This document shows, piece after piece, positions 42,455-53,310 of a stretch of DNA of 64,000 nucleotides (its first letter is position 1; each line of letters begins with the position of its first letter). The DNA lies in the NCBI RefSeq assembly GCF_001517835.1, contig NZ_LOQG01000003.1, positions 1 through 64,000 on the forward strand, read 5' to 3'. The DNA is from Caviibacter abscessus (GTDB lineage: Bacteria; Fusobacteriota; Fusobacteriia; Fusobacteriales; Leptotrichiaceae). Under the pieces are notes generated by a model, which was not told where the DNA came from, ran no database searches, and saw only the letters and a program-made list of their open reading frames with translations. The position numbers and the translations under genes are program-made.

Positions 42455-42925
42455 ATGGAAAAAATGATATATGATTTACTTAAAGCTTTAAAGATTGAAT
42501 ATGAAAAGTTAGAACATGAACCTATAACTTCTGTAAAAAATGCACCGAAATTAAAAGGACAACAAGTTAAAAATTTAGTATTAAAAGCTAAAAGTAGTAA
42601 TAAAATATATCTTGTTATACTACACGATGAAAAATCTGTGAATTTAACTAATTTAGCAGAATTATTGAATGAAAAAAGATTATCATTTGCAAGCGAAAAA
42701 GTATTAGAACAATGTTTGCATTGTAAACCGGGTGTTGTAACTCCATTTGGTTTAATATATGATACTGAAAATATTATTAATGTAATTATTGATACTCAAA
42801 TAGATACAAATACAACAGTTGGTTTTCATCCGTTTATAAACACAATTACCCTTAATATACAATTTTACGATTTTGAAAAATTTTTAAAATATGCTAATCA
42901 TAAACCTATATTTTTAAATTTATAA
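42455..42925 (+). CDS. prolyl-tRNA editing deacylase of the YbaK/PrdX (ProXp-ala) type
   Basis: The 156-residue protein has the YbaK-fold pattern: LEHEPITSVKNAPKLKGQQVKNLVLKAK near residue 19, with the conserved lysine, then GVVTPFGLIYD near residue 92 and VGFHPFINTITL near residue 122. This is the stand-alone relative of the ProRS editing domain that clears Ala-tRNA-Pro or Cys-tRNA-Pro. The exact substrate cannot be told from sequence alone. A 49-residue ORF follows 9 bp later. Confidence 0.85.
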   Translation: MEKMIYDLLKALKIEYEKLEHEPITSVKNAPKLKGQQVKNLVLKAKSSNKIYLVILHDEKSVNLTNLAELLNEKRLSFASEKVLEQCLHCKPGVVTPFGLIYDTENIINVIIDTQIDTNTTVGFHPFINTITLNIQFYDFEKFLKYANHKPIFLNL

Positions 42926-43099: not shown

Positions 43100-44554
43100 A
43101 TGGAATTAGAAAAGTTATATCCAGAAAGAGTATTTCACTATTTTCGTGAAATATCAAAAATACCTAGAGGCTCAGGTAATGAAAAAGAAATAAGTGATTA
43201 TTTAGTTAAATTTGCAAAAGATCACAATCTTTATGTTTATCAAGATGAGAAATACAATATTTTAATAAGAAAAGAAGCAACTAAGGGATATAAAAAATAT
43301 AAACCAATTGCACTTCAAGGACATATGGATATGGTTTGCGAAAAAAATAAAGACGTAGAATTTGATTTTGAAAAAGATGAAATTAAAATACTTGTTAAAG
43401 ATGGATTTTTAGTTGCAGATGGAACAACTTTAGGTGCTGATAATGGAATATGTGTTGCTATGGTACTTTCAATATTAGAATCTAACGAAATTAAGCATCC
43501 AAAGCTTGAGATACTTTTAACTACTGATGAAGAGGTAGGTATGTCTGGAGCTATATTTTTTGATGTATCAAAATTGGAATCGGATATTTTAGTAAATGTT
43601 GACAGTGAACAATACGGTACAATTTGTGTAAGTAGTGCAGGTTGTGCAAGAGTTAGAACTATGATTGATTTTGAAATGGAAGAAATAATAAATAAAGACA
43701 AAATTTATTCACTTGAGCTAAAAGGTTTAAGTGGTGGTCATAGTGGTGCTGATATAAATGAAAATAAGGCAAATGCAAATAAAATTTTAAATGAAATTAT
43801 AAGAAGATTATCTATAACAAAAGATGTAAATATAATAGACTTTAACGGTGGTAATAAAAATAATACAATACCTAGAGAATCACATGCACATATAGTATGT
43901 GATGAAAATTTTGAAACTGTAAATGAAATTGTACAAATGGCAATGGATTCACTTAGTTATGAATATAAAGAAAGTGAAAGTACAATGCAAGTAATTGTAG
44001 AAAAAATAGAATATACAGGTCAAAAACAAATGACAATATCTTCAACATATAAATTCATGCAATATATATCTGGGTATTTAACAGGTGTAATCAGAAAAAG
44101 TAAAGATATAGAAAATCTAATACAAACTTCTTTAAATTTAGGTGTTGTAGAATTAAATAACGGTCATTTAATGATTAATACTTTAGTTAGAAGTGCTATA
44201 TTAAAAGAACAAAATGATTTATGTGATTATGTTGTTGAATACGGAAATAAATTTGGTGGAGAAAGCATTATTGATGATACTGCAAATCCTTGGGAATATA
44301 AAAAAGATTCAAAGATAAGAGACTATTTTGCAAAAGTATTTAAAGAGCAAACAGGACAATATCCTAAAATAGAAGCAATACATGCAGGACTTGAATGTGG
44401 TATTTTTTATGAAAGTAATGATAAATTAGATATAATTTCAATAGGACCTGATATTAAAAATCCGCATACGCCTGATGAAAGAATGAGTATAAGTGCAGTA
44501 GCCCAAACTTGGGAATTTTTATTAAAAGTATTAGAGGAGTACACAATTGTTTAA
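43100..44554 (+). CDS. pepD: aminoacyl-histidine dipeptidase (M20 family, PepD-type)
   Basis: The 484-residue metallopeptidase starts YPERVFHYFREISKIPRGSGNE and has the zinc motifs ALQGHMDMVCEK near residue 73, TTLGADNGICVAM near residue 111 and LTTDEEVGMSG near residue 143. A lid domain sits in the middle and AIHAGLECGIF lies near the end. It cleaves Xaa-His and other dipeptides in the cytoplasm. The terminal codons overlap the next gene's TTG start. Unlike pepF and the C69 enzyme, this peptidase gene is intact. Confidence 0.94.
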   Translation: MELEKLYPERVFHYFREISKIPRGSGNEKEISDYLVKFAKDHNLYVYQDEKYNILIRKEATKGYKKYKPIALQGHMDMVCEKNKDVEFDFEKDEIKILVKDGFLVADGTTLGADNGICVAMVLSILESNEIKHPKLEILLTTDEEVGMSGAIFFDVSKLESDILVNVDSEQYGTICVSSAGCARVRTMIDFEMEEIINKDKIYSLELKGLSGGHSGADINENKANANKILNEIIRRLSITKDVNIIDFNGGNKNNTIPRESHAHIVCDENFETVNEIVQMAMDSLSYEYKESESTMQVIVEKIEYTGQKQMTISSTYKFMQYISGYLTGVIRKSKDIENLIQTSLNLGVVELNNGHLMINTLVRSAILKEQNDLCDYVVEYGNKFGGESIIDDTANPWEYKKDSKIRDYFAKVFKEQTGQYPKIEAIHAGLECGIFYESNDKLDIISIGPDIKNPHTPDERMSISAVAQTWEFLLKVLEEYTIV

Positions 44555-45611
44555 TGTAGATGGTATAGTTGTTGTTGAGGGAAAAGATGATAAAACAGCA
44601 CTAAGTCGGGTTATATCAGCAAATATTTTTGTATTAAACGGTATGACTGGAGCAAATCAGAAAAAAATTGATTATTTAAAAGATTTGAGTAACAATAATA
44701 CAATATACTTATTAACCGATCCTGATTTTGCAGGTGAAAAAATAAGAGAAAAAATAAATAAAAATATACCCAATATTATTAATCTATATGCATCAAGAAA
44801 TTTATGCCTTAGAGATGGTAATGTAGGAGTAGAGAATTTGCTTGATGAGGCTATACTTAATATTTTTAAAAATATTAGACATAGTAAAAATCAAAAAGAT
44901 AAATTTTCAATGCAAGATTTAATAGATAACGGTTTAACTTTAACAGATGATTCAAGTATTAAAAGAGCAGTTTTAGGGGATGTTTTATCAATTGGATATT
45001 CTAATACTAAGGGATTACTTAAAAAATTAAATTTACTTAATATTAGTAAAGAAGAATTTGAAAATGCAATGACAATAGTAAATAAAATGTATGATAAAAA
45101 AGATAAAATTGCATGTATTTTCGGTAAATTTTTTCCTGTACATAAAGGTCATATTTCGTTTATAAAATACGTGAGTAGATATTGTAAAAAACTATATGTC
45201 TATGTTTGTGAAGAAACAAAAAGAGATATAAAATTACAAGAAGAGTCAAAATTAAATAAAAACATGACAATTAAAGATAGAAAATTATTTGTTGAAAAAG
45301 AGTTAAAAGGATATAAAAATATATACGTTAAAGTTTTAAATGAAGATGGAATAGAGTCATATCCTAATGGTTGGCAAAAATGGAGTGAAAGAGTTAGGCA
45401 AACTTTAGATAAAGATAATATAAAAATAGATTGTATATTTACAAATGAAGTACAAGATATTGAAAATTATTCTAAATATCTTAATACACCTGCGTATTTA
45501 GTTGACCCTAAAAGAATAGGATATTACATATCATCAACGAAAATAAGAGAAAATCCTGAAAAATATATAGATTTTATACCTGATAGTGTAAAAGAATTTT
45601 TAGGTCTATAA
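44547..45611 (+). CDS. RNase M5 (TOPRIM) fused to a NadR-type NMN adenylyltransferase
   Basis: Start is TTG 44547, overlapping the previous stop, with GAGGAGT 7 bases upstream; no ATG fits before the TOPRIM motif. The product has 354 residues. Residues 1-180 are a whole RNase M5: VVVEGKDD with E11, LLTDPDFAGEKIR with D58 and D60, and VGVENLLDEAI near 90. M5 matures 5S rRNA. Residues 187-354 match the NadR adenylyltransferase domain: FGKFFPVHKGH (H199, H202), NEDGIESYPNGWQKWSERV and VDPKRIGYYISSTKIRENPEKY. The NadR kinase domain and repressor domain are missing. Both active sites look intact. A terminator follows. Confidence 0.88.
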   Translation: MFNVDGIVVVEGKDDKTALSRVISANIFVLNGMTGANQKKIDYLKDLSNNNTIYLLTDPDFAGEKIREKINKNIPNIINLYASRNLCLRDGNVGVENLLDEAILNIFKNIRHSKNQKDKFSMQDLIDNGLTLTDDSSIKRAVLGDVLSIGYSNTKGLLKKLNLLNISKEEFENAMTIVNKMYDKKDKIACIFGKFFPVHKGHISFIKYVSRYCKKLYVYVCEETKRDIKLQEESKLNKNMTIKDRKLFVEKELKGYKNIYVKVLNEDGIESYPNGWQKWSERVRQTLDKDNIKIDCIFTNEVQDIENYSKYLNTPAYLVDPKRIGYYISSTKIRENPEKYIDFIPDSVKEFLGL

Positions 45612-45638
45612 AAAGCGATTCATTTGAATTGCTTTTTT
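45611..45638 (+). terminator. terminator after the RNase M5-NMNAT gene
   Basis: Arms 45611-45621 and 45626-45636 pair over 11 bp with one G-T pair around a 4-base loop; the second arm ends in a T-run. Confidence 0.85.
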
Positions 45639-45815: not shown

Positions 45816-48251
45816 ATGAATAAAACTAGATTATTTGTATCAATACTACTACTAACAAACTTAGCTTATTCATTAGAAGGTGAACTTAAAACTGGTATAA
45901 AAATATCTCCGGAATTTACATCAAAAGAAAATAATACTAGCACTAATACTAATGAAGAACGGTTTACTTATAACAAAACTGGCTATAACTTTACTATTTT
46001 AGATTTAACTTTAAAAGATAAAATACACGGTTTTACATTTGGAACTGTAACTAAATCAAGTAGAAAAAACATTTTGATTAATGATTGGGCTAGTGAACAA
46101 TACAATAAGGAAGCAGAAAGAAAAGAAAAAAATCATGATTTTCAATCAAAATTGTTTGTTGATTGGAAATATCCCAAAGAAGGTAAAATCGGTGCTAATC
46201 TAGGAATTGATTATTATATCGATAATTATTTTAAAAAGAAATTAAGCGATAAAGGGAAAACTTTAGAAGAAGAGACATATGATTTAGAATTTATTGAAAA
46301 TGATAAGAAGAAGTATTTGGGTGGAGATGTTAAACTTAGAGCAGGATTAAAATTAAAGCCTATTGAAAAATTAAATATTGAGATAGACTCTGAATATTAT
46401 GCAAATAACTTTGTTAATTATACTAAAGGATATCCATACTTTTATTTAAAAAACAAATTGAATTATGATAATTTTAATTTTAGTCATGATTTCAAGTATA
46501 ACCTAAGATCTTTATCAGTTAAGTATACAGAAGAAAAAGAAAATGAAAAAGATGAATCATTTTCTTACCTTAACAATTTTGTAAGAAGATATACTCAAGA
46601 TATTAAGTCAGATTATACTCATAAGGTAAATGAAGATACGTATAAGATTAGTGTAGAACTTAATGATAAGGGTTATTTTATTGGCGGACCAAAAAAAGAA
46701 GATAAAACAGACATAATAAATCATAAAATTGATTTTAATACTAATTTAGACATAAACAATAAATTGGAATATGGAATAAATTTAGTAAATAAAATTGGAC
46801 TTGAAAATAGATTTGAAACTTCAAAATATCTTAATAATAAAAATTACGAATTATGGTCTGTTGTAAAACCATTTCATAAAATAGAACTTAGAAAAGACTT
46901 TTATTACAACAATTTCACATTTAAACCAAACATCAATTTTGAAACAAAATTAATTTTCCCAACAACTAAAGATATGTTTATGAGTGAATATTTTGTGAGT
47001 AAATATACTTTAAATGCAAACTTAGATAATTCATATGAAAAAGATAATATAAATGCAAGTGCTAAATTTAATAATAAAATTAATTTTAATCTTTTAGGAA
47101 AGATACTAAAGGAAGTAAATTCAGAATTTAGTCAATCATATGATGTTAAATATAAATATAATGATAAACTTACATTTACAAGTAAAGGAAAAAATACAGC
47201 TGTATTAAAAACCGTAAATGATGTGCAAGAAAGAGTATATTTTGATAACTTACAATTAGCATATTCAGTAAATGCAGGAGCAGATTATACAATAATTAAT
47301 AATAATAAAACATCAGAAAAAATGAATTTAGTAGTAGATTTAGGACTGAGTCATAAATATGAGATCAGTTATGTTTTAGATGGAGGAAATGTTCCATTTA
47401 TACCTGATGATAAGTTTCCAAAGCAACCTGAAGAAAAACCACATAAAGATAAACCTGAAATTAACTTCCCAGAAAAATCAAAAGATACAAATAATAACAC
47501 AGGAAAAAAAGAACAAGGAGGAACAAATATACCACCTGCACCACCATTACCTAAAACTCCAGTGCCTCCAGCTCCGCCATTACCAAGTACGCCTGGAACA
47601 ATACCGCCTGCACCACCATTACCAGGTGCAAAAACAGTATCAGAAGAAGTGTTTACTGCGGGCTTAGCTTTACTAAAAAAAGATAATAACGAAACTGAGA
47701 AGGATAAAAATAAGAAAAAGATAGAAGAACTTGTTAAACCTGAAATTGATTTGAATAGACTCAATGAACCTCAAAAAAGAAAATTTAAAAACGATCCAAG
47801 GCTTTTATTATTCATTCAAGAATATACAGCTAATGCACAATTAAATTATACAAAGGTAATAGATAAATTAACACTAGAAACAGGTGTTAAAGTGCTAGCA
47901 AAATTAGATGTTATTTCACTTATGAAAGAAAAACAAACCAAGGAAAGAAAATCTGAAGAAGATACAAAAGAAAATAGAATTGATTTAGAAACTTCAAGTT
48001 ATTACAACATGAAATACAATGTTGGGGGTAAAATAGAAATAGTTCCTAAAGTGAAGGTAAAATATGACTTTATTGAAAATTTCAATTTAAGCGGATTATT
48101 AGAACTTAATATAGACTTTGGTAGAAAGGTCTTAAATAAAATTGAAGATAAAAAAAGAACAGACTATGGAACTTATGGACCAGTTGATAGAGTATTTAAG
48201 TTAAGAAAAATATCCCCTAAGGTAGGTTTAGAATTAGAGTATAAGTGGTAA
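45816..48251 (+). CDS. predicted outer-membrane beta-barrel protein with a proline-rich tract
   Basis: The 811-residue protein has a signal peptide (about 1-19, ending LAYSLEG), a long series of alternating beta-type strands rich in K, N and D, and a C-terminal aromatic (LELEYKW), the pattern of a barrel recognised by BamA. Residues 572-606 hold three near-repeats of the unit PPAPPLP, flanked by highly charged stretches; this resembles surface-exposed proline-rich linkers. I cannot assign a family. It lies 16 bp before the S8 autotransporter gene, so the two proteins are made together. It could be a processing substrate, a partner, or an independent adhesin. Confidence 0.7.
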   Translation: MNKTRLFVSILLLTNLAYSLEGELKTGIKISPEFTSKENNTSTNTNEERFTYNKTGYNFTILDLTLKDKIHGFTFGTVTKSSRKNILINDWASEQYNKEAERKEKNHDFQSKLFVDWKYPKEGKIGANLGIDYYIDNYFKKKLSDKGKTLEEETYDLEFIENDKKKYLGGDVKLRAGLKLKPIEKLNIEIDSEYYANNFVNYTKGYPYFYLKNKLNYDNFNFSHDFKYNLRSLSVKYTEEKENEKDESFSYLNNFVRRYTQDIKSDYTHKVNEDTYKISVELNDKGYFIGGPKKEDKTDIINHKIDFNTNLDINNKLEYGINLVNKIGLENRFETSKYLNNKNYELWSVVKPFHKIELRKDFYYNNFTFKPNINFETKLIFPTTKDMFMSEYFVSKYTLNANLDNSYEKDNINASAKFNNKINFNLLGKILKEVNSEFSQSYDVKYKYNDKLTFTSKGKNTAVLKTVNDVQERVYFDNLQLAYSVNAGADYTIINNNKTSEKMNLVVDLGLSHKYEISYVLDGGNVPFIPDDKFPKQPEEKPHKDKPEINFPEKSKDTNNNTGKKEQGGTNIPPAPPLPKTPVPPAPPLPSTPGTIPPAPPLPGAKTVSEEVFTAGLALLKKDNNETEKDKNKKKIEELVKPEIDLNRLNEPQKRKFKNDPRLLLFIQEYTANAQLNYTKVIDKLTLETGVKVLAKLDVISLMKEKQTKERKSEEDTKENRIDLETSSYYNMKYNVGGKIEIVPKVKVKYDFIENFNLSGLLELNIDFGRKVLNKIEDKKRTDYGTYGPVDRVFKLRKISPKVGLELEYKW

Positions 48252-48267: not shown

Positions 48268-51200
48268 ATGAATATCAAAAAGATAAGTAATATAATTTTT
48301 GGGGTAGTTGCTTTAACAAGTTGTAGTACTGCTGTCAAAAATGACGGATACAGTAAGCCTACCTTAGTAATGTATAAAGAAGAAGATACTAATCTTTCAG
48401 ACTATACAAAAGAATATGATTCAAAGAATTTTGAAATTAGAGGACCTAAATATGTATATAAAGGTGAACAATTTAAAACTCAATATATAGATTCAGAAAC
48501 TGTGGTTTATAAAACAAAAGTAGAATTAGCTGAAAAAGTTATTAAAGAAGGAGAAGCTGAATATTCAAACTATCCTGATAAATCAAATGAACAGTATACA
48601 GTTAGGATTGAAGAAATAAAAGATCCTAAAGATAGCAAAAAGACAATTAAACAAAAAGTTGTTTTTGAAAATAATGATAAAAATGTAAAAATGATTTTAA
48701 AAAGTACAGATACAGGAAAAGAAAGAGAAGTAAATTTAACTCAAAAAATAAAAGTAATCGATCCTTTAGATGTATTTAATAAACAATATCCAGGAGTAGT
48801 AAGATATACTGATTTAAAAAAAGGACTTGATAATGGAAGAATATCTTTAGATGTAGCATCAGCTGACGGACTTAGTAGATTAACATTTAAAATTAAAGAT
48901 ACAAATATAAATAAATATGAAGATTTAGATGATATGGTAGGAGAACATGAAGTTCTTGTAAGAATAAGAGTTGATGGTTTTGCTTCTGAAAGAGATGTAT
49001 TTGTTAAGAAAAAAGTATATTTTGGTGAAAAATTAGAAGACTATAAAAAAGACTATTCAAAATTACTTTCAAATCTTGATGAAAATTCATTAAGATTTAG
49101 TAAAGACGGGAAAGAAGTTTTAGGTGGATTTAATGAAGAGATAACATCAAAATTATTAGCAAATGAAAATAAAGATTATCATGGTAAAAATACAAAAGAT
49201 TTAGCATTTGTTACAAAAATAATTGATGAAGATCCTACTAAACCTACAGTTGGTAATCATAAAGTTGTAAGACAAATAATAGAAAATGGAAAAGTTGTTT
49301 ATCAAAAATATGATGAAAGTTTTGTAGGATTTAATGGACCTACTGTATTAGTTACAGATAATTCATTTTTTGATTTATCACCTGAAATTGAAAGAAGAAC
49401 ATACAGACAAACACCATATTATTCAGACCCTAAATTTAACTATATTGATATGAATAAGAATAACCCTAATGAATATGCAAAAGAGCAATCAAAACTTGAA
49501 AGAACACATGGAGCTACAGTTATAGGTTCTATGATAGATGAGTTAAGTTATGGGGATCATTATTGGTGGAGAGCTAATACTATAGCTCAAATAGGAAAAG
49601 TTGGAAAAGATGCGGGAGAAAAAACAAAACAAAAATTAGATGATAAAAAGTTATTTGATTTACTTAACGGTATACTAGAATCACTTGAAATAAAATATCC
49701 GGATAAAGTTAATGTAAAAAACGTTGTAAATGAAATTAGAGCAGAAATGGAGAAAACGCTAAAACCTGCAATAGAAGGTAAAATGAAACCTATTGGGCAG
49801 CAAGAGCAAACATTAACTGAGGAACAAAAAAAGAAAAAATTAGAAGAATATTATGATTTTGTACTAAAAAAAGGTTTAGAACTTAGAAATATTACAGAAG
49901 TTGATAAAATACCTTATACAGACATTAATTTTCATGTTATTTCAATGGGGAAAAAAGATGGTCGTTCAGTTGATCCTGTTAAATCAGGAAAATATATTGC
50001 AAAAGCTTTAGAAGAAAATAAGAATATTAAAATAGTTAATATGTCTTATGGTTCAGATCAAAGTTTTGATGAATATGTTAATCTTGATACTGTAAGTGAT
50101 GAAAATGTACAAAAGGCAGCTGATTACTATAATCAAAATCCATTATACAGATTTTTGATACAAGCTTGGCTTAAAGCTGAAGATGATAAAATATCAGAAT
50201 TAATACGTAAAAGATATACAGATGCCTTTGATGCAACAACTTTATACAATTATTTTAAAAATAAAGAAACAATAACAGCAGAAGATTTTAAAAAATTAAT
50301 AAGATTTAAAAAATATCATTTGGAGTCAGCATTAGAAAATGCTCCAGAACTTATTGCAGCAAATAATGATGTGCTTTTTGTAAGAGCTTTAGGGAATACA
50401 TATTCACATGCTAATGTAGATTTAACAACTTTTAAATCTAATGGGCAAAAAAGAATTATATCAGATCCTAATTTAAAGTATAATAACAATTTAGGAAGTA
50501 TCCCAAGTATGTTAAATTATATAAGAGCAAAAGAAGCAGAAAAAGAAGGAAAAGAATATAAATACGACTATACTTATAGAAAAAATTTACTTGGAGTAGT
50601 TGGAGTAAGTAGTAAATCATCATTTTATGGATCAAAATCAACTGATGATTTTTGGGGATATGGTATAGGAACAGGAGCAATACCTAAATTAAAAAATAAG
50701 GATTTAACACCTGGAATGTATGATATGTATATTTCTTTAGTTAAAAAGTTAAATGAAATGAGAAAAGATCCAACTAAATATCCTAAAGAAGAACAGGAAG
50801 AAGTTGAAAATCAAATAAAAGCAATTGAAAGTTTCAGTTCATCAACTAACGGTAAAGCGGATTTATTCTCACTGACAAGAGCAGGTTCATCAAAATTATG
50901 GTCTATTGCAGCTGAAGGAGAATATGCATATGTAAGTAAAACAGCAACAGATGGTACAAAATTAGATGATGATAAGAATTTTAATATAAACTTTGGGTCA
51001 AGTTTTGCAACACCAAGAGTTACAGCAGTAGCTGCAAAAGTACAAAGTCTATTTCCTTGGATGACAGCACATCAAATAAAGCAAACAATTTTAACTACAG
51101 CTAAAGATGATTTTAGAATAGTAGAAGTTAAAGATGGAAAAAAAGAAATTAAAGGTATTTATGGAGTAGATGAAAATATAGGTTGGGGTCTACTTGATAA

Positions 51201-53310
51201 AGAAAAAGCATACAAAGGTCCTGCAAGATTTGTTAAAGCTTTAACTCATGAAACAGGAAGCGATTACTTTAATGCAAATATAAAATCAGGTGTGTCTGTA
51301 TTTTCAAATGACATAGCTGGAGGATTTAGTGTTATAGAACATATGTTATCAAGAGGGAAATTACCTCAAGAGGAAATAACAAAACTTAATAATTCAGCAA
51401 GTCAAGATGATTTTAATAAAAAATATGCTGATAAACTAAAAGAATATCTGTCAAGTCTATCTTTTGAGGAAAGAGAATTATTCTTTGATGCTGGTCTTGA
51501 AAAAACAGGAAAAGGAACATTAATATTAGCAGGAAAAAATAATACTTATACAGGAGATACAAATGTAAAAGAAGGAACTTTAGTTATAAGAGGTGGTATG
51601 AAATCTAATATAAATATATTTAAAGGTGCTAAATTAAAATTAGATATTAACTATGAAGATAATGTAATAACTAAAAATGATCCTGAAGGTAAGTATAAAC
51701 CGATAGATGGAGAAATACAAAATGCAGGTTCTTTATACTCATATTCTAATTCAGACACAATTACGAAAAAATACCTTCCTTACACAGGGTCAAAAACATA
51801 TGTTTCACCTATATCTAAATTAAGTATAGGAGCATTAGATTTACGTTTTACAGATGATTTTACTATTGATATATTCCAAGTAAAGGGTATAAGTAATAAA
51901 ATAACACAGTTTAAAACAGAATCTTTAATATTTGAAGCAAAGGCAAATGCTACTGAAATGAGCAAAGTAAGACTAGGAATATTTCCTGTAAGTGAAAAAT
52001 TATCTCTTAAATTAGAATATAAAGACGGATATTTAAAAGGGACAATAATGAAAGGTGGTATATATGAAAAAGCCGAGGATAAAAGATCAGGCGGAGATAA
52101 ATTACCTTACTTATCAGAATTAGAAAAGAAACTTGAAGAAACAAGAAAAAAATTAGATGAAGAAGCAGAAAAAAGACGTAAAGAACAAGACGAAAAAAAT
52201 AGTAAAAATAAAAAATCATCTGATAAACCAAGTACAAATACTGTATTAGCTACAATAAATTCTTTAGAAAAACAAGAAGGAGAATATGTACCTACTGCAC
52301 TTTCATTGTCAGAATCTATGACAACAGAAATGTTAGAGTACAAGCGTTCTAAAGTAAGTGATGCACTAGATGCCATTTTATATGCAAAAAAGAATGATAT
52401 TAAAGCTATGAATGGTCAAACACTTGTTGACTCTTTATCTGTAGGATTTGATGTAGCAAGCTTAAATAAAGATATATCTGATGATATTTTAAAAGTTAGA
52501 TTTACAAATAAAAAAGTAAATTTATTTACACAAGGATTAACAGATTTAACAGTTCATAAAGATATTAAAGATGATATTGTATTAAAATCTCATTTAACAG
52601 GAGGATATTTAGGTGTTGGTACTAAAATGAATGATATTAATTTTGGTATTTATGGTAAATATTTAAATGGAAGTGTATATAATGATGATATTCAAGCAGT
52701 AAAATTAAACAGTATTGGAATAGGAACGTTTATGAAACTTGATAAAAAGAATGTTGAGTTTGATGCCGTGTTGTCAACTGATGTGATTTATAAAAAAGTG
52801 GTAAAAGATGTTTTATATGAAAATAGAAGTGAATATTCGCAAAATCAATATAATTTATCATTTGCAGTAGGACTTGGATATAGATTCAATATTAATAATA
52901 TTGCTACAATTAAACCTAAGTTAACCCTAGATAATCATTTATTTGTATTTGATAAATATAAAGAACAAGATTCATTTTTAGGATTACAATATGATTTACA
53001 AGCAAAATATAAAGTTTGTGCAAAAATTGGAATAGAAAGTAATGTTAAATTTAATGATAAGTTAGATTTAGACTTGGATTTTGAATACAGTAAATGGATT
53101 ACAAATACTAAATTTGATTTGAAAGTTAGTTCATCAGAATTTACTGATATACAAAATACCGTTAATACAGTAAAATTGAAGGATAATGAGTTCAAGTTTA
53201 AAGCAGGATTAAATATTAGACCTACAAATAAATTAAATTTAAACATTAATTATACTAATAAAAATATAAAATCAAATAAAATTGGTTTTGGTTTAAATTA
53301 CGTATTTTAA
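48268..53310 (+). CDS. lipobox-bearing autotransporter with an S8 (subtilisin-like) protease domain
   Basis: The 1680-residue protein starts with a lipoprotein-type signal (VVALTSC, Cys19). An N-terminal charged region runs to about 350. The S8 domain has D364 (LVTDNS), H414 (RTHGATVIGS) and S912 (FGSSFATPRVTAVAA), so the triad is complete, with far more sequence between His and Ser than usual. A PATR-type autotransporter repeat (LAGKNNTYTGDTNVKEGTL) lies near 1090, a coiled coil (LEETRKKLDEEAEKRRKEQ) near 1290, and a C-terminal barrel from about 1400 ends in NYVF. Lipidated S8 autotransporters are known from NalP of Neisseria, which sheds other surface proteins. It is co-transcribed with the preceding outer-membrane gene. 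Confidence 0.88.
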   Translation: MNIKKISNIIFGVVALTSCSTAVKNDGYSKPTLVMYKEEDTNLSDYTKEYDSKNFEIRGPKYVYKGEQFKTQYIDSETVVYKTKVELAEKVIKEGEAEYSNYPDKSNEQYTVRIEEIKDPKDSKKTIKQKVVFENNDKNVKMILKSTDTGKEREVNLTQKIKVIDPLDVFNKQYPGVVRYTDLKKGLDNGRISLDVASADGLSRLTFKIKDTNINKYEDLDDMVGEHEVLVRIRVDGFASERDVFVKKKVYFGEKLEDYKKDYSKLLSNLDENSLRFSKDGKEVLGGFNEEITSKLLANENKDYHGKNTKDLAFVTKIIDEDPTKPTVGNHKVVRQIIENGKVVYQKYDESFVGFNGPTVLVTDNSFFDLSPEIERRTYRQTPYYSDPKFNYIDMNKNNPNEYAKEQSKLERTHGATVIGSMIDELSYGDHYWWRANTIAQIGKVGKDAGEKTKQKLDDKKLFDLLNGILESLEIKYPDKVNVKNVVNEIRAEMEKTLKPAIEGKMKPIGQQEQTLTEEQKKKKLEEYYDFVLKKGLELRNITEVDKIPYTDINFHVISMGKKDGRSVDPVKSGKYIAKALEENKNIKIVNMSYGSDQSFDEYVNLDTVSDENVQKAADYYNQNPLYRFLIQAWLKAEDDKISELIRKRYTDAFDATTLYNYFKNKETITAEDFKKLIRFKKYHLESALENAPELIAANNDVLFVRALGNTYSHANVDLTTFKSNGQKRIISDPNLKYNNNLGSIPSMLNYIRAKEAEKEGKEYKYDYTYRKNLLGVVGVSSKSSFYGSKSTDDFWGYGIGTGAIPKLKNKDLTPGMYDMYISLVKKLNEMRKDPTKYPKEEQEEVENQIKAIESFSSSTNGKADLFSLTRAGSSKLWSIAAEGEYAYVSKTATDGTKLDDDKNFNINFGSSFATPRVTAVAAKVQSLFPWMTAHQIKQTILTTAKDDFRIVEVKDGKKEIKGIYGVDENIGWGLLDKEKAYKGPARFVKALTHETGSDYFNANIKSGVSVFSNDIAGGFSVIEHMLSRGKLPQEEITKLNNSASQDDFNKKYADKLKEYLSSLSFEERELFFDAGLEKTGKGTLILAGKNNTYTGDTNVKEGTLVIRGGMKSNINIFKGAKLKLDINYEDNVITKNDPEGKYKPIDGEIQNAGSLYSYSNSDTITKKYLPYTGSKTYVSPISKLSIGALDLRFTDDFTIDIFQVKGISNKITQFKTESLIFEAKANATEMSKVRLGIFPVSEKLSLKLEYKDGYLKGTIMKGGIYEKAEDKRSGGDKLPYLSELEKKLEETRKKLDEEAEKRRKEQDEKNSKNKKSSDKPSTNTVLATINSLEKQEGEYVPTALSLSESMTTEMLEYKRSKVSDALDAILYAKKNDIKAMNGQTLVDSLSVGFDVASLNKDISDDILKVRFTNKKVNLFTQGLTDLTVHKDIKDDIVLKSHLTGGYLGVGTKMNDINFGIYGKYLNGSVYNDDIQAVKLNSIGIGTFMKLDKKNVEFDAVLSTDVIYKKVVKDVLYENRSEYSQNQYNLSFAVGLGYRFNINNIATIKPKLTLDNHLFVFDKYKEQDSFLGLQYDLQAKYKVCAKIGIESNVKFNDKLDLDLDFEYSKWITNTKFDLKVSSSEFTDIQNTVNTVKLKDNEFKFKAGLNIRPTNKLNLNINYTNKNIKSNKIGFGLNYVF

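Follow-up and report, generated by a model that had tools for sequence, protein, structure and literature searches.

A single reading frame of Caviibacter abscessus, located in the 64,000-nucleotide stretch of contig NZ_LOQG01000003.1 that was analysed here (positions 1 to 64,000, forward strand; hereafter the window), joins an RNase M5 to the NMN adenylyltransferase (NMNAT) domain of NadR. The fusion is genuine, old and conserved, and it appears to be an undescribed architecture built from two known enzymes. It is likely a bifunctional protein whose halves are independent and keep their ancestral activities, and which originated once by rearrangement and has been retained without need of coupling.

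Gene structure and domains

The earlier note on this DNA, which was made from the letters alone, described one clean frame that encodes both complete enzymes, and the frame, the TIGR00334 and Pfam matches and the matches to PDB 1lw7 and 6tpq all agree with it (Table 1). The frame is uninterrupted from its TTG start through the last sense codon to a TAA stop, and its start overlaps the stop of the preceding pepD-like gene by 8 nt. The signature residues and motifs of both enzymes (E11, D58, D60, GVEN, HxGH, YPxGWxxW and SxTxxR) are all present.

Table 1. Features of the fusion locus in the window (residues are those of the fusion protein)
Feature	Coordinates	Strand	Remarks
pepD-like aminoacyl-histidine dipeptidase	43100..44554	+	5' neighbour of the fusion
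Shine-Dalgarno-like AGAGGAG	44532..44538	+	8 nt before the TTG start of the fusion
Fusion ORF, RNase M5 :: NadR-type NMNAT	44547..45608	+	354 aa; stop codon 45609-45611
RNase M5 part, residues about 4-175	44556..45071	+	Toprim (about 7-74) and C-terminal DUF4093 (92-175)
Inter-domain connection, residues 183-187	45093..45107	+	last M5 helix (168-182) to first NMNAT strand (188-193), AlphaFold2 model
NadR NMN adenylyltransferase domain, residues 186-352	45102..45602	+	HKGH 199-202, YPNGWQKW 272-279, SSTKIR 329-334
Terminator-like hairpin and T run	45613..45638	+	read by eye; directly 3' of the fusion stop

Regarding the N-terminal half, residues 4-175 matched the RNase M5 model TIGR00334 with 112.7 bits (curated cut-off 110.65), both Toprim and DUF4093 were recognised by Pfam, and residues 4-177 matched RNase M5 PDB 6tpq at the sequence level with an E-value of 1.7e-18. 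The best structures returned by Foldseek were likewise those of RNase M5 (6tpq, E 7.7e-12, TM-score 0.75 by target length), and the TM-score against RNase M5 PDB 6z2b was 0.89. The signature acidic residues E11, D58, D60 and E96 are invariant in all nine fusions found and in the eight other M5 rows of the comparison. With RNase M5 (rnmV, TIGR00334; PDB 6tpq, 6z2b) this half shares the two domains, the acidic signature, the fold and a score above the cut-off, whereas the fusion adds a C-terminal NMNAT to a protein which in the other genera of the family has a length of about 180-200 aa. As an RNase M5, this half would cleave the 5S precursor with uL18; when 5S precursor flanks were folded as a test for M5 substrates, they were able to pair in some genomes, a result that did not discriminate.

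Regarding the C-terminal half, residues 186-352 matched NadR of Haemophilus influenzae (PDB 1lw7, E 2.6e-37 by sequence), which was also the best structure in Foldseek (E 1.3e-15, rmsd 1.4 over 168 columns, 42% identity). The signature positions of HxGH, YPxGWxxW and SxTxxR are invariant in 9/9 fusions. The ribosylnicotinamide kinase (RNK) domain of NadR is absent, the chain stopping after the NMNAT domain, and the models for bifunctional NadR remained below threshold (TIGR01526, 124.8 of 341 bits; NF005988, 157.8 of 201 bits). The fusion has the NMNAT domain with all signature motifs in common with NadR (NMNAT plus RNK; PDB 1lw7, 8x7f), but it lacks the RNK and the N-terminal DNA-binding domain, and its NMNAT sits behind RNase M5. 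The junction between the halves comprises about 5 residues in the AlphaFold2 model (mean pLDDT 89.6, pTM 0.73). Purifying selection on the two halves is strong among the genomes of the genus Streptobacillus, with dN/dS values of 0.11-0.18 for the M5 half and 0.09-0.15 for the NMNAT half.

Upstream of pepD the window encodes a protein with a YbaK/ProX-type aminoacyl-tRNA editing domain (42455-42925; Pfam tRNA_edit, 91 bits). Downstream of the fusion lie genes for a beta-barrel-like protein of the outer membrane, 811 aa long and containing a proline-rich stretch (45816-48251), for which no NCBIfam match was obtained, and for a 1680-aa putative subtilisin-type autotransporter, recognised by eye only (48268-53310).

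Distribution and origin

The genome sample comprised 98 genomes across the phylum, 33 of them from the family Leptotrichiaceae. The whole fusion was found without internal stops in 9/33 family genomes, representing four genera (g1, g7, g10 and g11, the last being Streptobacillus), with identities of 48-65% to the window protein; no other searched genome of the phylum contained it. The fusion is present as a single copy in the genome of the window (G000, 1.22 Mb, 99.4% complete). In a genome-contig scan for fusions outside the phylum, the 80 best loci included one fusion, that of a Streptobacillus. An error of sequencing or assembly, which the note had named as a possible source of the continuous frame, is excluded because 9 genomes from 4 genera share this open frame. 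A phage origin was also considered and rejected: no phage record covered 80% of the fusion protein, the scan of viral contigs was empty, and the phage rows listed matched the NadR and M5 halves only singly. The note had been unable to connect the architecture to a described system; in agreement with this, no paper combining RNase M5 with NadR, or ribonuclease M5 with Fusobacter, was found among the open-licence papers searched, and a comparative-genomics paper on Sneathia covers NAD synthesis in general terms only.

The fusion arose once: the nine sequences form one clade both in the NMNAT tree (support 98/95) and in the M5 tree (support 100/98). In the family genera without the fusion (Leptotrichia and others) rnmV and nadR are separate genes, which is the ancestral state. 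The note had regarded separate genes in close relatives as evidence against a real fusion; they do exist in these sister genera, but not in the four fusion-bearing ones, and the fusion is not refuted by them.

Gene order records both ancestral neighbourhoods. The gene pepD is the 5' neighbour in 9/9 fusion loci and precedes the free rnmV in most other inspected loci of the family, the order being dinB-small ORF-pepD-rnmV in several genera. One of the NadR-type genes, nadR2, stands before rpmG, tRNA-Trp, secE, nusG and the L11/L1 genes in the non-fusion genera g2, g4, g6 and g8. The order in Streptobacillus is pepD-[fusion]-rpmG-tRNATrp-secE-nusG, with similar sequence immediately ahead of rpmG, while genus g10 has dinB-small ORF-pepD-[fusion], which equals the ancestral rnmV site. 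Both ancestral neighbourhoods meet at the fusion, and the genera differ in which side they kept. Since the Streptobacillus order joins the pepD-rnmV and nadR-rpmG loci, the fusion marks the place where a rearrangement brought the two together. Regarding the donor of the NMNAT domain, the NMNAT tree alone leaves nadR1 and nadR2 undecided; the gene order and the identity of the fused domain (about 53% versus about 35%, the higher figure on the nadR2 side) favour nadR2 as the probable source.

The rearrangement would have set pepD-rnmV directly before the nadR of the rpmG-tRNATrp-secE-nusG locus in the ancestor of the four genera, upon which rnmV would have read into nadR, and the kinase domain of NadR would have been lost as the lineage gave up the salvage of nicotinamide riboside.

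Leptotrichiaceae without the fusion (e.g. G001, G010 and G017) encode two NadR-type proteins per genome, the RNK domain being strong in nadR1 and weaker-scoring in nadR2. The open frame of nadR2 is shorter in G009 (259 aa) and G013 (280 aa).

NAD synthesis in the fusion genomes

Targeted family searches found no true NadD in any of the nine fusion genomes. PnuC was absent from all nine, a NadR-type RNK was represented by weak P-loop matches only (with no AAA_28 match in the genome of the window), and true NAD synthetase was likewise absent from 9/9, with weak matches only, as across the whole family. Every fusion genome does encode a PF04095 protein (NAMPT) of about 480 aa, which in the genome of the window has the N-terminal domain PF18127 NAMPT_N in addition to PF04095. 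The PF01467 proteins of that genome are limited to CoaD, RibF, a TmcAL-type HIGH nucleotidyltransferase and the fusion. The earlier note had raised the question of another NMNAT or rnmV, and the fusion proved to be the only recognisable copy of each in this genome.

As NadD, RNK, NAD synthetase and PnuC are missing while NAMPT is present, the fused domain is probably the sole NMNAT of these genomes and would belong to a two-step route; the genomes are drafts (that of the window 99.4% complete), in which another enzyme for this step may have escaped detection, and an NMNAT of non-homologous type is possible. The gene content supports a predicted route from nicotinamide to NMN by NAMPT and from NMN to NAD by the fusion. 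In Haemophilus ducreyi, NadV makes NMN from nicotinamide (PMC4081464). This NadV-dependent type of nicotinamide salvage has NAMPT/NadV and an NMNAT in common with the fusion genomes, but in the latter the NMNAT is one half of an RNase M5 fusion.

Function of the fusion

The N-terminal half would be the RNase M5 of the genome, trimming the 5S rRNA precursor, and the C-terminal half its only NMNAT, converting to NAD the NMN supplied by the separate NAMPT/NadV. That only NMNAT would now be translated from the start signals of rnmV, so that the loss of either half would be difficult. To judge from the genes present, the NMNAT half probably makes the fusion essential, and the fusion most likely persists through this indispensable enzyme in the same chain rather than through a required coupling of the two activities. 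The physical linkage of the halves is best read as an accident, although the 5-residue connection and the unbroken conservation could mean that the joint itself was selected.

A functional link between the halves, raised in the note as a tie of ribosome production to NAD status, is one alternative. It is doubtful that the 5S maturase carries the sole NAD-making adenylyltransferase so that 50S maturation and the supply of NAD (or energy) adjust together; equally unlikely are the forms such a link might take, in which the fusion anchors the sole NMNAT to the 50S subunit or pre-5S rRNA, or the binding of NAD, NMN or ATP controls cleavage by M5, ribosome maturation in either case tracking the NAD or energy status. 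Such coupling would be in line with the retention of the fusion across 4 genera at 48-65% identity without re-splitting in 9 genomes, with the very short connection in the AlphaFold2 model, with the 50S-bound precursor being the substrate of M5 (PDB 6tpq), and with the closely spaced tandem 5S genes of the fusion genera. Against it, the gene order can account for the fusion as an accident, the protein shows no additional regulatory domain, and elsewhere in the phylum M5 has gained an unrelated domain resembling arsenate reductase. Moreover, Listeria tolerates the loss of M5, its rnmV mutant having shown wild-type-like growth on plates at low temperature (PMC12774634), so that the enzyme is a weak control point there.

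The same dispensability of M5 in Listeria (PMC12774634) might suggest that one half is an inactive scaffold, e.g. that the M5 half only provides start signals and solubility for an essential NMNAT; this is very unlikely, as the M5 signature residues are all invariant, the dN/dS of that half is low (0.11-0.18) and no second rnmV was found. Internal initiation near the junction, by which a free NMNAT would be made beside the fusion, is likewise very unlikely, though it may occur in single species. Most fusions do have Met codons in this region (M175 and M181 in the window protein), and one Streptobacillus-genus genome (L008) has GAGG before the internal Met codons, but the predicted ribosome pairing at those of the window is -1.0 to +0.7 kcal/mol compared with -8.6 at the true start, pairing upstream of them is weak in most relatives too, and the junction stretch of L005 contains no start codon at all. 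The note had also suggested that the NMNAT half may cap or adenylate RNA ends. Action on RNA, e.g. NAD-capping or adenylation of RNA ends near the M5 site, has nothing in its favour except that the domain is joined to an enzyme that cuts RNA, and is highly improbable: the fused domain retains the NadR signature residues, and NAMPT is present while any other NMNAT is absent, so that ordinary NAD synthesis needs the domain. The pathway content explains it as an ordinary NAD-making enzyme.

Under the preferred reading of independent halves kept together by the NMNAT, the fusion links a ribosome-maturation nuclease to the probably sole, and therefore indispensable, NAD-making enzyme of a clade of host-associated bacteria to which Streptobacillus belongs. 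Rat-bite fever has two agents, and the type species of Streptobacillus is one of them (PMC4529157). The prediction follows that M5, dispensable elsewhere, would not be removable as a whole gene in the fusion species, because the NMNAT would be lost with it. The locus also provides a well-resolved case in which a rearrangement in a small-genome lineage led to a lasting fusion of unrelated enzymes, and it lends itself to testing whether fusions of this kind acquire a function.

Tandem 5S rRNA pairs with spacers of 5-11 nt were located at G000:C19:68-293, G018:C1:1013279-1013501, G027:C1:56-282 and G028:C1:212646-212868, and a pair with a spacer of 89 nt at G030:C1:1582980-1583286, in a genome of the genus Streptobacillus; no such pairs are listed for genera without the fusion. 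These pairs are possibly tied to processing by M5.

Another M5 fusion in the phylum is a 313-aa protein that joins RNase M5 in one frame to a domain resembling arsenate reductase or low-molecular-weight phosphatase (G063:C24, L069:1670-2608; G065:C1, L070:1476-2414). It occurs in two of the seven genomes of one genus, which belongs to another family of the same order; the other five genomes encode a free RNase M5, with no arsenate reductase-like gene adjoining rnmV. Both this protein and the fusion of the window carry an enzyme domain at the C-terminus of RNase M5, but the partner in the former is unrelated (LMWPc or arsenate reductase type). By analogy, RNase M5 appears to tolerate C-terminal additions.
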